Positions 37,788-58,332 of a stretch of DNA of 64,000 nucleotides are shown in pieces. Numbering within the stretch: position 1 is the first letter of the stretch; the number at the start of each line of letters is the position of its first letter. This DNA comes from Fimbriimonadaceae bacterium. Its GTDB lineage: Bacteria > Armatimonadota > Fimbriimonadia > Fimbriimonadales > Fimbriimonadaceae. The stretch covers positions 289,564-353,563 of the forward strand of contig CP075366.1 in the NCBI GenBank assembly GCA_019454145.1, in the 5' to 3' direction. The notes below the pieces were generated by a model that did no database searches, was not told where the DNA came from, and was given only the letters and a program-made list of their open reading frames with translations. The translations under genes were made by a program, and so were the position numbers.

Positions 37788-39200
37788 CTACTGACTCTTA
37801 CCTTGATCCAGGTGAACCATAGTTCCCATGAGGGTTTTTTCGGCTCCGCCGATATCCCCGCGCTGGATAGCCTGCATCGCCATGGTGACTTCCTGAGCGT
37901 CGGCGGATTTGCCTTGACTCACCAGCAGAGCCTGGGTTTTGGCAAGATCGGCAAGGGCGGCTTGCGAAGTGATCGCCTGAGTTTTGAGCCCCATGATCGT
38001 TTTTTCAACGACGCGGCTAGCCGCGCTGATTTCCGCGGCGGCAGAAACTTTGGGGTTTGGCATCGCCATGAATCGGGCTTGCTCGGCGGTGAATTCCATC
38101 ACTAGATCAACATCCACGGTTTGAGTTCCACCCGTGATGGAATCGTAGTGGAGTTTTCCGGCCCCGACCCGGTAGTGACCAAGCGGATGGTTGTCGAATT
38201 CCAGATCAACCACAACTTGGATCGTTGCGCCGCGTTCGATATCGGCAAGGTTGACCGAGATTTCTCGTTCTCCCGGTGTGCCAGCATAACCAGTACATGA
38301 TTTAAGTGACACCCATCGGGCAAATTTGAGATCAAACCGCAGATTAACCCCGGTGGTGCTCACCATTTTATTGAACTCGGTTCGGAAGATTTCTGGGATC
38401 AACTGAGGCTGAGGAATGTAGTAGTAGTTCCCGCCAGACTTCTTCGCCATCGCCGCGAGAAGTTCTTCGTTGTATTCCGCGCCGAACCCAAGGTAGGTGG
38501 TGGTGATGCCTTTATCTTTGATTTCTCCGGCATGGTTTACAAGCGGTTGAAAATCTTTTATTCCGGCGGTTGGCTCGCCATCGGTGAGAACAACCATTCG
38601 GGTAACGCGGCCAGATTCGATCATCTGCGCGAGTTGCTGACTGCCAAGGGTCAAGCCATCGTAGAGGTTGGTCGTATAACCCGGTTGGAGTTGATTGATG
38701 CCGTTTTTGACGAGTTGCTTATCGGTCACGCGCTGGGGAGGCATGAGAACCTCGACAACTTCATCGAAGACGACGATGCTGAGAATATCGTTGGGTGATA
38801 GCAGATCCACAACCTGATTGCACGCTTGTTTTGCGTATTCAATCGGCTGGCCTTCCATACTGCCACTGCGGTCGATCACCAGGCAGAGGTTCAGCGGAGC
38901 GCGGTCACCAGCAACCGACATTCCGCTCAGACCTGGCTCGCTTGGAGCCGTGATTTCAAGCAGAAATTGTTCGCGGGCGGGGCCGTTCGCCATGGTAGCT
39001 TCGCGGCTGGGGGTGAGGACAAAACTTAATGGAGAACTTGGTGACCAAGCGGTGGTTCGGTTCGGGTCGCCCGCCACTGGTGGAGAAGCCATGGCTTGGG
39101 TGCGTCCCATGTCTCCCGGCTGACCGATCATCGTGCGGTTCGGGTCGATGGCGCCGGGGGGCTGGCTCATCACGGTTCGGTTCGGGTCTTGAGGATTCAT
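37788..39200 (-). CDS. VWA-domain protein with DPNRT-repeat N-terminal tail
   Basis: 470 residues. The N-terminal 60 residues are low-complexity and contain DPNRT three times (5-9, 19-23, 45-49). A von Willebrand A domain follows, with MIDAS motif DRSGSM (110-115) and later LTDGEPT. The C-terminal region is beta-rich then helical. There is no signal peptide, so it is probably cytoplasmic. It is the last gene of an operon with two FHA proteins. Because FHA domains bind phosphothreonine, the repeated Thr motifs may be their docking sites; no kinase is seen here. Confidence 0.85.
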   Translation of the reverse strand: MNPQDPNRTVMSQPPGAIDPNRTMIGQPGDMGRTQAMASPPVAGDPNRTTAWSPSSPLSFVLTPSREATMANGPAREQFLLEITAPSEPGLSGMSVAGDRAPLNLCLVIDRSGSMEGQPIEYAKQACNQVVDLLSPNDILSIVVFDEVVEVLMPPQRVTDKQLVKNGINQLQPGYTTNLYDGLTLGSQQLAQMIESGRVTRMVVLTDGEPTAGIKDFQPLVNHAGEIKDKGITTTYLGFGAEYNEELLAAMAKKSGGNYYYIPQPQLIPEIFRTEFNKMVSTTGVNLRFDLKFARWVSLKSCTGYAGTPGEREISVNLADIERGATIQVVVDLEFDNHPLGHYRVGAGKLHYDSITGGTQTVDVDLVMEFTAEQARFMAMPNPKVSAAAEISAASRVVEKTIMGLKTQAITSQAALADLAKTQALLVSQGKSADAQEVTMAMQAIQRGDIGGAEKTLMGTMVHLDQGKSQ

Positions 39201-53971: not shown

Positions 53972-54667
53972 TTAGGCGAATTCAAGAAGGTCGTCTAACT
54001 TCAATCGCCCGGTATAAATTGCCATTCCAAGGGCGACTTGGATGTTGGCTTGGACTAACTCGCGCACTTCGTCGAGGCCAGCAATCCCTCCGGCGGCAAT
54101 GATGTTTTTGCTCGTTGCAGCCCTTAGCGAACGAAAGAGATTCAAATCTGTGCCCCGCATGGTGCCCTCGTTGTCCACAAAAGTGCAGAGGAAACCTCCG
54201 CAATACGGTTCAAGTAGTTTGATGGCCTCAACGGGAGTCATGCGAATATTTTCTCGCCAGCCCTTGATCGCGACCTGTCCGGCCAGGCTGTCAATGGCAA
54301 TGATTATCCGATCAGTTTCGATTTCATTTGTGAGGGAGGTTAAGAATTTGTGATCCACCCCGCTTTCGGCAAATGCCCGGGTGCCAACAATGACTTGCTC
54401 TGCCCCAGTGTCAATCAGTTGCTGAGCACGTTCAACGGATCGCACTCCTCCGCCAACACTGGCGCGCTTTTTCCTCACGATATCTTCAACAAGCGCGTCG
54501 TTATTTCCTTGCCCCATTGCCGCATCAAGATCAATGACGTTGATGAGCGGAAATGCTTGAAACAGGCGAAGTGCGTCGTCAACTGAATCAAGTTCTAGCG
54601 CGGGGGTTTTGCCCTGAATAAGTTGAACGACTTTGCCGCCCATGAGGTCAATACAGGGAATAATCAT
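53972..54667 (-). CDS. hisA: ProFAR isomerase
   Basis: This enzyme (phosphoribosylformimino-AICAR phosphate isomerase) catalyses the fourth step of histidine synthesis. It has 231 residues, a TIM barrel. Conserved blocks are [15 protein letters not shown], with the catalytic Asp in CID, and [11 protein letters not shown]. It overlaps hisF by 4 nt (ATGA) and is the last gene of the his operon. Confidence 0.95.
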
Positions 54668-55425
54668 GCGGTTCTCCGGACTGTGATTTTATTGGCGCTT
54701 AGATACTCTTTGAGATCGGGAATTTTTATTTCTCCAAAGTGGAACACGGATGCCGCAAGAGCGGCGTGGGTACTGGTTTGCTGAAAGAGGTTTAGAAAGT
54801 GTTCCTTTGTTCCGGCTCCGCCCGAGGCAATTACGGGGACATCCACCGCATTTAATATCGTTTGGTTAAGGGGAAAGTCGAATCCGGATTTTGCACCGTC
54901 CGCATCCATTAAGGTCAGCAGTATTTCGCCAGCACCGAGCACAACACCTCGTTCAATCCACTCAATTGCGTCTAAGTCGGTTGCAATTCGGCCACCGTTG
55001 ACCGTGACTTCCCAAGCGGATGCCTTTCGCCGCGCATCAACGGCGAGCACTACTGCTTGAGAACCAAAATTATCCGCCAGTTCGCGAATCAGTTGCGGGT
55101 TTCGAACGGCGGCACTGTTGACTCCAATCTTATCTGCGCCTGATCGGAGCAGTTTTTTTGCTTGTTCAACGGTAGAAATTCCACCTCCAACCGTTAATGG
55201 AATGAATACCTGCTCAGCAATTTTTGCCACAACATCCAGCATTGTTTGGCGACCTTCATGGGTCGCACTGATGTCGAGTAATACAATTTCATCCGCACCT
55301 TCGTCGTTGTATCGTTTGGCGAGTTCTACTGGATCGCCGGCATCCCGGAGATTGACGAAGTTGACACCTTTGACAACTCTGCCGTTGTCAACGTCAAGGC
55401 ACGGAATGATACGCTTTGCTAGCAT
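54664..55425 (-). CDS. hisF: Imidazole glycerol phosphate synthase, cyclase subunit
   Basis: 253 residues. HisF uses ammonia from HisH to make imidazole glycerol phosphate and AICAR. The TIM-barrel opening [19 protein letters not shown] carries the first catalytic Asp. [10 protein letters not shown] and the phosphate loops follow. It overlaps hisH by 7 nt and hisA by 4 nt, so the three are tightly coupled. Confidence 0.97.
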
Positions 55426-56003
55426 GGTGGCATCTCACAAAACTGCTTAAGGAGTTGCAATCCCGCGGTGCCGGATTTTTCGGGATGAAACTGAACACCG
55501 ATCGCATTGCCAACTCTGAGGGCGGCTGAAAAAGGAATTCCATAATGGCAGGTTGCTATTGTCACTTTTTGCACAGGCACGTAATAAGAGTTTGCAAACG
55601 TGTACCAACCAGCAGGAACCAGTGCGTCAGCTGGAACTACCTCATTCCAGCCCATGTGCGGAACCGCGAGATCAAGTTGGAATTTTTTAACTGCGCCGGT
55701 AAGTATCCCAAGGCCGGGCAGTTCAGAAGCTTCTTCGCTTGATTCAAACATCGCTTGCATGCCAAGGCATATTCCCAGAAAGGGCCGCCCATCCGTTGCA
55801 GCTTTGTACAAGCATTCTCGCAGATTGAGATCATCTATGGACTTGATCATCTGACCAAAGTTGCCGACGCCCGGCAAAATAACACGCTCGGCGGATTCAA
55901 TTTCTTGTGGAAATGCAGTTGTTCGATATTGCACTCCTAAATGTCGAAGGGCATTCTCGACCGAATGCAGGTTTCCCGATCCGTAATCAACAATTGCTAG
56001 CAT
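55419..56003 (-). CDS. hisH: Imidazole glycerol phosphate synthase, glutaminase subunit
   Basis: 194 residues, a class I glutamine amidotransferase that supplies ammonia to HisF. The nucleophile Cys is in [10 protein letters not shown], and the catalytic His and Glu are in [10 protein letters not shown]. The N terminus ([16 protein letters not shown]) is typical. The gene starts 3 nt after hisG. Confidence 0.97.
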
Positions 56004-56006
56004 TGT

Positions 56007-56876
56007 TTACACCACGATCTTGTTGAGAGGGTATTCAACGATTCCAGTAGCACCAGCTTGTTTCAGCTTCGGAATAATCGCACGCACACTGGATTCGGGC
56101 AAAACCGTGTTTATTGCAACCCAAGTTCCATCGGCTAGGGGTGAGATCGTTGGACTGTTCAGAGCGGGCAAAACATCGAGAACCTCTGGCAAATTGTCGG
56201 AAGCTACGTTGAGCATCAGTCCCACACATCCAACTGCGGCGATTGCCCCTTCCAGCAATAGCTTCATATCTTGAAGTTTCTGTTGCTTCCAAGGATCATG
56301 CCACGCTGACTTATTGGCAATGAGCTGAGTGTTAGATTCCAAAACTGTTTCGACAATGCGGAGCTTATTCGCGCGTAGGGAAGACCCTGTTTCAGTGACT
56401 TCTACAATCGCATCAGCGAGAATTGGCGGCTTAACTTCGGTTGCGCCCCAGCTGAATTCGACTTTAGCTGAAACTCCGTTTTTCGCAAGATAGTTTTGGG
56501 TGGCTCCTACCAACTCAGTGGCGATGACTTTGCCTTCCAAATCCATTACTGACTGAATCGGAGAATCTTCAGGAACGGCCAAAACCCAGCGGACTTTGCC
56601 AAAACTCTGCCGCGCGTACACCAAGTCGGCAACGGGAAGCACGTCGGTGTTTGATTCCGTAATCCAGTCCATCCCGGTCAGGCCAGCATCCAGAATTCCT
56701 TGATCAACGTACCGGGCCATCTCTTGAGCCCGGATGAGCATGCATTCTATTTCAGGATCATCAATAGTAGGGAAGTAAGAACGGTTGCTGACTGAAATGG
56801 CCCACCCCGCACGCCGGAAAAGTTCAACAGTTGCTGACTCTAAGCTTCCTTTTGGAATACCGAGTCTGAGTTTCAC
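56007..56876 (-). CDS. hisG: ATP phosphoribosyltransferase, long form
   Basis: This is the first committed enzyme of histidine synthesis, condensing ATP and PRPP. At 289 residues it is the long form with a C-terminal regulatory ACT-like domain, so it does not need HisZ. Conserved blocks are [20 protein letters not shown] and [17 protein letters not shown]. The long form is expected to be inhibited by histidine, which complements the attenuator upstream. It overlaps hisI by 4 nt. Confidence 0.95.
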
Positions 56877-57253
56877 GGTTTCACCTCGTAAGTGGCTTGC
56901 TCGTCATAGACTTTTTCCTCGGTGACTTGCCATTCGCCGTCTTCAAGCGTCCGAAAGAAACAGCTTTCATACCCTTCGTGGCAAACACCTTTTACTGTTG
57001 GATTAACCTGAACGAGGATCGCATCTTGATCGCAATCGGTTTGCAAGCCCACAACTTCTAATGTGTGCCCGCTTTGCTCACCTTTAACCCACAATTTGTT
57101 GCGGCTGCGACTGAAGAAAGTTGCTTTCTTCGTCTCAACCGTCATCTCCCAAGCAAGTTGGTTCATCATTGCAAGCATCAAAACACGACCAGTCGTCGCA
57201 TCTTGGACGATCGCCGGCACCAGCCCTCCAGATTTTTCAAAGTCAATTTTCAT
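56873..57253 (-). CDS. hisI: Phosphoribosyl-AMP cyclohydrolase
   Basis: 126 residues, monofunctional. It opens the adenine ring of PR-AMP in the third step. Zinc and magnesium motifs are present: [11 protein letters not shown] and [11 protein letters not shown]. It is the first gene of the hisI-G-H-F-A operon. The start lies just after the attenuator terminator (57266-57308). Confidence 0.95.
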
Positions 57254-57265
57254 TTCAAGCTCTCG

Positions 57266-57308
57266 AATAAAAAAAGCGAGCCCACCGTTTTCACGGTGGG
57301 CTCGCTTT
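57266..57308 (-). terminator. his operon attenuator terminator
   Basis: On the minus strand, AAAGCGAGCCCACCGT (57308-57293) pairs perfectly over 16 bp with ACGGTGGGCTCGCTTT, a 4-nt GAAA loop, then a run of T. It lies between the His leader peptide and hisI. The antiterminator candidate is CGGTGCTTG in the leader, which can pair with the 5' arm of this hairpin. Confidence 0.88.
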
Positions 57309-57326
57309 CGATTCTGTTCTAGATTC

Positions 57327-57401
57327 TTACACGATCAAGCACCGCTGCCAATTGGTAGCGTGATGATGATGGATCGCTTGAATCAAGAACATCTGACGCA
57401 T
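57327..57401 (-). CDS. hisL: His operon leader peptide
   Basis: A 24-codon frame, ATG at 57401 to TAA at 57327, with four consecutive His codons CAT CAT CAT CAC (57371-57360) at residues 11-14, preceded by QAI and followed by ATNWQRC. Directly at the fourth His codon begins a hairpin CACGCTACC-AATT-GGCAGCGGTG. The ribosome can therefore melt it when His-tRNA is scarce, releasing CGGTGCTTG to pair with the terminator arm. This is the classic attenuation arrangement. Confidence 0.88.
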   Translation of the reverse strand: MRQMFLIQAIHHHHATNWQRCLIV

Positions 57402-57444
57402 AAGTTACCTACTTTAAATGGTCGGGTCGGGACTGCCTATACAC

Positions 57445-57479
57445 ATAAAAAATTGGCCTGGAATTTCTCCAGGCCAATT
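57445..57479 (-). terminator. Terminator after the PEP-CTERM protease-like gene
   Basis: AATTGGCCTGGA-N5-TCCAGGCCAATT, a 12-bp perfect stem, followed on the minus strand by TTTTTTATG. It ends the upstream gene 13 nt after its stop, and insulates the his leader. Confidence 0.93.
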
Positions 57480-57492
57480 CAACAGAAAGGGT

Positions 57493-58332
57493 TTACGCTG
57501 AGTTACGTCGTCGCCGAGCAACCCATGCAAGAGCCAATCCCGAAAGAACCATAGTCGTTGGCTCTGGAACTGCTTGGATTCCCGAAGTTTGGGTGATCCA
57601 ATCCATGTTTGTATGGAGAGTGCTGAAGTAGGCTTGGTCGCCGTACTGCGAGTTATTGTCGGTGCCCCATGAAGTCACGCCAGCAAGTAACCAAGTGCTA
57701 CCTTCTTGGAAGAAGAATCCGCCACCGGAGTCACCGGATGCAGTGGTACCTTCAAGCGGCAATACACCGCCTTGGGTTGGAGTCTGAAACGTGGTTCTCC
57801 AGAAGTTTTGGTTAGTACCAAAACTTTGGAAAGTATCAATAGTGTTGTTCGCCGCCCGTCGTTGATTGTCGCTAATAAGGTTAGTATTGTTACCAACCCC
57901 GCTCAAACCATATCCAGCGAACATCGACGTCAGCCCTGCTATATCAGATCGCATAGACATTCCTACAGCAGTTAGTCCCGGATTGGAAGCAAATCGAACC
58001 AGAGCGACATCTGACCGTAGAGTTCCAGCGTTGTAATCAGAAGGTCGGAAGCTTCCGTTTAAGGAAAAGTTTGTATTATTGATGCGAAATGTTGTTAGTG
58101 CACCTGCATCAAGGACGTGGCCAGCGGTGAGAGCCCAGTGAGCACCATTTCCGAACCCGATGTAGGTCGCACTGCCGGCCAGTGAGCCGTTAAAAACGAG
58201 CCCAACGCTTGCCGATGCACCCACATTCCCAAGGGCTAAGTAATTGGAATCTGCGACATCATGCCGCCGAACAATGGCTTGGCTTTGGGCGACGATTCCA
58301 AACGCCAAAACCATGATTAAAGTTTTCTTCAC
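57493..58332 (-). CDS. PEP-CTERM trypsin-like serine protease
   Basis: 279 residues, GTG start. Signal peptide ends near SQA. The chymotrypsin-fold triad is visible: His72 (LTAGHVL), Asp108 (SDVALVRF) and Ser about 202 (GDSGGG). The C terminus has the PEP-CTERM sorting signal VPEPTTM, a hydrophobic helix and RRRRNSA, implying exosortase-dependent surface processing. It is monocistronic with its own terminator. Confidence 0.92.
   Translation of the reverse strand: MKKTLIMVLAFGIVAQSQAIVRRHDVADSNYLALGNVGASASVGLVFNGSLAGSATYIGFGNGAHWALTAGHVLDAGALTTFRINNTNFSLNGSFRPSDYNAGTLRSDVALVRFASNPGLTAVGMSMRSDIAGLTSMFAGYGLSGVGNNTNLISDNQRRAANNTIDTFQSFGTNQNFWRTTFQTPTQGGVLPLEGTTASGDSGGGFFFQEGSTWLLAGVTSWGTDNNSQYGDQAYFSTLHTNMDWITQTSGIQAVPEPTTMVLSGLALAWVARRRRNSA

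Follow-up and report, generated by a model that had tools for sequence, protein, structure and literature searches.

A probable histidine attenuator upstream of hisIGHFA in a Fimbriimonadaceae bacterium and its likely acquisition from Acidobacteriota

Leader-peptide attenuation is best documented in the Proteobacteria, the Actinobacteria and a few Firmicutes, and leaderless attenuators occur in the Actinobacteria. A stretch of 64,000 nt from a Fimbriimonadaceae bacterium of the Armatimonadota (hereafter the window) carries a short open reading frame with a run of histidine codons, followed by a terminator, in front of the hisIGHFA operon. This raises the question whether transcription of these genes is controlled by a His attenuator and, if so, how such a switch came to be present in this phylum. 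The initial annotation of the locus proposed a classical His attenuator, and this is still the best reading: the His codons and the pairing between regions 2 and 3 of the leader (2:3) are kept in relatives, and the response to histidine is putative. We consider it very likely that the element is a histidine-responsive, ribosome-mediated transcription attenuator of hisIGHFA, and that it and the operon were acquired jointly, the donor being a Bryobacterales-like acidobacterium. Comparison with related sequences establishes the His run, the terminator, the order of the parts, the 2:3 complementarity, the -10-to-start spacing and the horizontal origin.

Table 1. Features of the hisIGHFA operon and its putative leader; positions are those of the window
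Feature	Position	Strand	Basis or remark
Upstream gene's own terminator	57450..57480	(-)	Separate from the leader terminator
Predicted -10 element AGG-TAACTT	57402..57410 (hexamer 57407-57402)	(-)	9 nt 5' of leader ATG
His leader peptide ORF, MFLIQAIHHHHATNWQRCLIV and stop	57327..57392	(-)	ATG 57392 conserved in nearest relative (G081)
Four regulatory His codons, CAT CAT CAT CAC	57360..57371	(-)	Sequence reading and chance estimate
Region 1, CACGCTACC	57354..57362	(-)	Part of putative 1:2 protector structure
Region 2, GGCAGCGGTGCTTG	57336..57349	(-)	Partner is region 1 or region 3; ends immediately 5' of leader stop codon
Region 3, terminator 5' arm, GAAAGCGAGCCCACCGT	57293..57309	(-)	Antiterminator partner of region 2
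Region 4, terminator 3' arm and U tract	57268..57288	(-)	Folding
hisI, phosphoribosyl-AMP cyclohydrolase, first structural gene	56873..57253	(-)	NF000768, 143.7 bits (cutoff 126); ATG at 57253
hisG, long-form ATP phosphoribosyltransferase	56007..56876	(-)	TIGR00070 and TIGR03455 above cutoff; trees
hisH	55419..56003	(-)	TIGR01855 above cutoff
hisF	54664..55425	(-)	TIGR00735 above cutoff
hisA	53972..54667	(-)	Best match TIGR00007, 171.7 bits, under its cutoff of 228.95

The minus-strand frame 57401-57327 with CAT CAT CAT CAC reads as annotated, with the run at 57371-57360. Four consecutive CAY codons occur twice in the window, where chance predicts 0.08 occurrences; the other run (38497-38508) is located within a long ORF, in a different frame. 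The terminator had been described as a 16-bp stem (57293-57308), but its stem comprises 17 bp (57309-57293 paired with 57288-57272, minus strand) and is followed by a U tract. Its energy is -33.2 kcal/mol, corresponding to a z-score of -9.9 relative to shuffled sequences, and the 135-nt leader as a whole has a z-score of -6.9, with none of the shuffles as good. Both the terminator and the His run are far beyond chance. The elements of attenuation stand in the correct order, as had been noted, and the terminator is close to the start of hisI, at 18 nt 5' of the gene.

The gene upstream of the leader (57493-58332) encodes a trypsin-like protein that carries a PEP-CTERM sorting domain, and it precedes the operon in G081 too, and a gene for a protein with a prepilin-type N-terminal domain (TIGR02532; 52774-53739) is located 3' of hisA. 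Within the genus of the window, hisH, hisF and hisA directly follow hisG; in G035 (L088), hisH begins 2.9 kb after hisG, with space enough for hisD, hisC and hisB. The hisD gene of the source genome is far off (C1:713877-715091), directly after an ORF resembling glutamyl-tRNA synthetase; it adjoins this preceding ORF and no His leader was found before it.

The initial annotation had proposed to check its reading against homologous upstream regions, and this comparison came out in its favor, with the His codons found in 7/7 loci of the family and 68/77 relatives and the 2:3 pairing maintained. Searches for HisG and HisI in 85 Fimbriimonadaceae genomes identified the hisI type of the window in seven (G000, G081, G035, G036, G037, G056, and G084). 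In the first six of these hisI adjoins hisG, and in G084 hisI was found and hisG gave no match. All seven loci have a short His-run ORF that ends 72-114 nt 5' of hisI, with a terminator behind it. Outside the His run the leader peptides of the family differ considerably (MFLIQAIHHHHATNWQRCLIV, MARFHSAQHHHATNGLRCCRA, VRNFSHRHLHHNAHPLRQFGTTE, MAIRTVHHRHHHHAGLFRRARR, VKFSLNALHHHHVNAIHPRRGSRL), and a MAFFT alignment of six family leaders is poor except at the His codons and the terminator. At the other hisI loci of the family, a weak His-rich ORF was seen in 1/23 (by hand calculation, the hypergeometric probability of 7/7 vs. 1/23 is about 4e-6), and at the other hisG loci of the phylum in 1/48.

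The relatives outside the Armatimonadota are 77 hisG loci, close relatives that are nearly all from Acidobacteriota, and 68 of them carry the leader ORF and terminator 5' of hisI; for some of the remaining nine, a complete hisI or upstream region is lacking. Four Bryobacterales loci (L123, L133, L157, and L158) retain the TATACT promoter-like box and have lost the His run, so that the switch is dispensable. At L133, the promoter is almost directly followed by a terminator. The leader was also found in 28/29 further Acidobacteriota loci, with HisG identities to the window protein down to 60%. Judged by eye, it is present at 20 of an additional 40 Acidobacteriota loci; of the remaining 20, all but about one have hisI directly behind another coding sequence, in most cases the end of hisF, so that it is not the first gene. 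Across the leader set, the median peptide length is 22 residues and the median number of His is 5 (3 to 10). In all, His leaders recur before hisI in more than 100 loci of two phyla, and do not at control loci.

An antiterminator formed by regions 2 and 3 had been part of the original proposal. It can be drawn as described and is conserved across relatives, but for the window alone it does not exceed chance (p about 0.1-0.3): the z-score is -1.2, 21/200 shuffles are equally good, and in the test that covered the leader set the window itself has p = 0.30. As the 2:3 energy of the window is not unusual, the mechanism rests on comparison. RNAfold does return the 2:3 pairing of the window if the stretch as far as the last His codon is deleted. 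The median energy of the 2:3 duplex is -17.5 kcal/mol among 75 leaders, compared to -13.7 for dinucleotide shuffles, and 30 leaders reach p < 0.05; Fisher's combined p (5e-24) counts related sequences as independent and should not be read literally. Swapping partners between all loci does not discriminate, as the GCCCGCC core is almost identical everywhere, and permutation on non-redundant loci was used instead. In 52 non-redundant acidobacterial loci, the own 2:3 partners outpair permuted partners (P = 0.0016) despite the near-invariant core. The automatic choice of terminator in the leader set was wrong for G035 (L059). In G037 the antiterminator comprises 12 pairs, and its sequence (CGGCAGTTCGGC paired to GCCGAGCCTGCCG) is quite different (p = 0.003).

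Over the leader set as a whole, the antiterminator and the terminator are mutually exclusive, and the leader stop is placed such that a terminating ribosome would cover region 2. This region lies mostly inside the 26 nt preceding the leader stop and starts mostly 6-16 nt past the last His codon, so that a ribosome at the stop codon would cover it and a ribosome on the His run would not. For the 1:2 hairpin that had been placed at the last His codon, the sequences of regions 1 and 2 are as annotated and the structure in the window reaches back to the start of the ORF, but statistical support for the pairing is weak: p < 0.05 in 13/71 leaders, slightly above shuffles, and p = 0.065 in the window. 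The codons right before the His run in L115, L095, L112 and similar loci (VAR, GTCGCCCGC) resemble region 3 (GCCCGCC), and in many acidobacterial leaders regions 1 and 3 look like near-copies in competition for region 2.

The leaders also share a promoter-like element close to the start codon. With any in-frame start codon allowed, the motif G-n-TAnnnT is found 7-11 nt 5' of a start in 67/75 leaders, against a mean of 1.35 and a maximum of 5 in mononucleotide shuffles, and a TA...T hexamer with at least 4/6 matches to TATAAT is located 7-10 nt 5' of the start codon in 60/75, other spacings giving 0-3. The consensus from the 75 leaders is TGnTATACT, without conservation at -35. The -10 hexamer of the window is a poor one (3/6 to TATAAT) but is conserved in G081, as TAAGTT, at equal spacing. 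A Shine-Dalgarno-like 4-mer is present in just 5/75 leaders. Leaderless genes, which make up 13.3% on average in Acidobacteria, are recognized by a -10 box some 12 nt upstream of the start codon and the lack of a Shine-Dalgarno sequence (PMC3160421), and the leaders show both features. The leader mRNA is thus probably almost leaderless, with a predicted transcription start at about 57395 in the window. Translated from the ATG at 57401, the frame would yield MRQMFLIQAIHHHHATNWQRCLIV, which by direct reading of the sequence adds MRQ to MFLIQAIHHHHATNWQRCLIV; with a start near 57395, this ATG would not be transcribed. The equivalent ATG is missing in G081, the nearest relative, where only that of 57392 is kept, and the true leader start is likely 57392 rather than 57401.

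A His attenuator was regarded as unexpected in what looked like an Armatimonadota genome. The genome does belong to this phylum. The switch is widespread in Acidobacteriota, and acquisition of the operon from there would explain the unexpected occurrence. HisG of the window is 72-78% identical to proteins from Bryobacterales and other Acidobacteriota, and 53-62% to its closer matches in other Armatimonadota. A HisG tree of 92 rows places the six sequences of the hisI-hisG type and 38 of the Acidobacteriota type on a branch with 100% support, apart from 48 other Armatimonadota. When a tree of 59 rows is rooted on the other Armatimonadota, the deeper Acidobacteriota split first and the Fimbriimonadaceae HisG are placed with the Bryobacterales type (100/93); five of them cluster together (99/94), with G056 placed among the Bryobacterales, consistent with one or two transfers. 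Both trees are of the HisG protein alone, and the number and place of transfers differ between them (six sequences together in the 92-row tree, five plus one in the 59-row tree). The source genome is one complete contig, so the foreign-type operon is no binning error. The identities of HisG and its nesting within the Acidobacteriota suggest that the operon and the attenuator were transferred together, and their joint arrival by horizontal transfer from Acidobacteriota is well supported by these sequence data. Bryobacterales-type his operons were also seen in L091 (labeled 'Arcobacter'), L161 and L164 (labeled 'Chthoniobacterales'), which are probably mislabelled or mixed MAGs.

One alternative is that the intergenic hairpin simply terminates the upstream gene, the His run being a chance ORF. 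A strong terminator between two genes on the same strand would agree with this, as would the antiterminator that is not significant in the window alone, but the upstream PEP-CTERM gene ends in its own terminator at 57480-57450 and thus has no need of the one at 57309-57272. Together with the His-rich leaders at the same place in more than 100 loci of two phyla, and their absence at control loci, this makes a fortuitous arrangement extremely improbable. A vestigial leader on an operon controlled by another sensor, for example a T-box or a repressor site, would fit the related loci at which the leader was lost and the operon kept. However, the T-box (RF00230) was found in 0/85 family genomes by a search that was positive in known T-box genomes, on which basis we reject T-box control of the operon, and distant leaders keep the His codons, the frame and the position of the stop while other residues have changed; another sensor is very improbable.

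Attenuation could also be real on an mRNA with a normal 5' untranslated region, the distance from the -10 element to the AUG being a by-product of compact promoters. The poor match of the window hexamer (3/6) speaks for such an arrangement, but given the motif at 7-11 nt in 67/75 leaders, against 1.35 on average in shuffles, and the 5/75 leaders with a Shine-Dalgarno-like 4-mer, we regard it as unlikely. With respect to the origin, the operon might be native to Fimbriimonadaceae and have been donated to Acidobacteriota, or derive from a common ancestor. Trees of a single protein that vary in the number and exact place of transfers leave room for this, whereas the restriction of the hisI type to 7/85 family genomes and the rooted tree, with deep Acidobacteriota first and Fimbriimonadaceae with the Bryobacterales types, render a native operon quite unlikely. 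Our preferred reading remains a His attenuator that came with its operon from Acidobacteriota.

For such an attenuator the following mechanism can be envisaged, in which we infer the transcription start, the ribosome positions and the histidine response. RNA polymerase would start a few nt 5' of the leader AUG, and a ribosome would load with almost no 5' untranslated region. With ample His-tRNA, the ribosome would pass the His codons and reach the stop codon just behind region 2; with this region covered, regions 3 and 4 would pair and transcription would end before hisI. When His-tRNA is scarce, the ribosome would stall on the His run and mask region 1, leaving region 2 free to pair with region 3, such that no terminator forms and transcription continues into the operon. 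Without translation of the leader, region 2 would be held in a 5' hairpin, allowing the terminator to form. More broadly, we think it likely that the locus belongs to a widespread, undescribed class of nearly leaderless His attenuators with an extended -10 element (TGnTATACT) by the leader AUG, by which hisI-first operons in Acidobacteriota would normally be controlled and which would move between phyla as a self-contained unit of operon and switch that is kept in the new host. As the switch needs only ribosome, RNA polymerase and tRNA-His, no partner protein should be required for it to function in a new host, and this independence can help account for the transfer.

Judged by its anatomy, the element is an attenuator of the His leader-peptide kind. 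The phyla are new for this kind, the leader is probably near-leaderless, and the transfer is well supported. It provides a named candidate attenuator for Acidobacteriota that is open to test, and a putative case of a cis-acting RNA switch crossing a phylum border along with its operon. In the near-leaderless layout, the timing of the first ribosome would be tied directly to the start of transcription.

No Rfam family reached its gathering score in 19 loci, including the His_leader family (RF00514), which was also absent from the matches of the window stretch up to E = 1. The only leader-type match in the window, to the Thr leader (31.6 bits vs. a gathering score of 55), was rejected and apparently stems from the CAY/ACC repeats and the terminator; a match to SorX (23.3 vs. 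46.6 bits) was likewise rejected, as it corresponds to the terminator of the upstream gene. Our literature search found no his leader from Acidobacteriota or Armatimonadota, though an earlier mention for Acidobacteria in a survey (PubMed 20198868) is possible. According to PMC2965389, predicted attenuators in Acidobacteria are almost all without assigned function.

Among Firmicutes, His leader attenuators are reported for the Bacillus cereus group, Peptostreptococcaceae and Erysipelotrichales, with a proposed transfer of an attenuated his operon (Lutispora) (PMC9413887), and a His leader is described for Bacillus hisS/hisZ (PMC2965389). As far as the available parts of these papers go, they resemble the present case as comparative predictions of a His leader peptide, terminator and antiterminator outside the Proteobacteria; they differ in that they concern other phyla, the transfer is within one phylum, and the leaderless arrangement is not mentioned. 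The trpL leader of Sinorhizobium meliloti, in the available part of PMC7298713, shares with our leaders an attenuator leader-peptide mRNA whose 5' end coincides with the start codon or adjoins it. The two differ in amino acid, operon and phylum, and the leaderless state here is read solely from the -10 spacing. Like hisL of E. coli and Salmonella (RF00514), the window locus has a His codon run in a short leader peptide, a Rho-independent terminator before the first his gene, and mutually exclusive pairing. In contrast to hisL, its operon is hisI-first rather than hisG-first, its leader is shorter, and its mRNA is probably near-leaderless.
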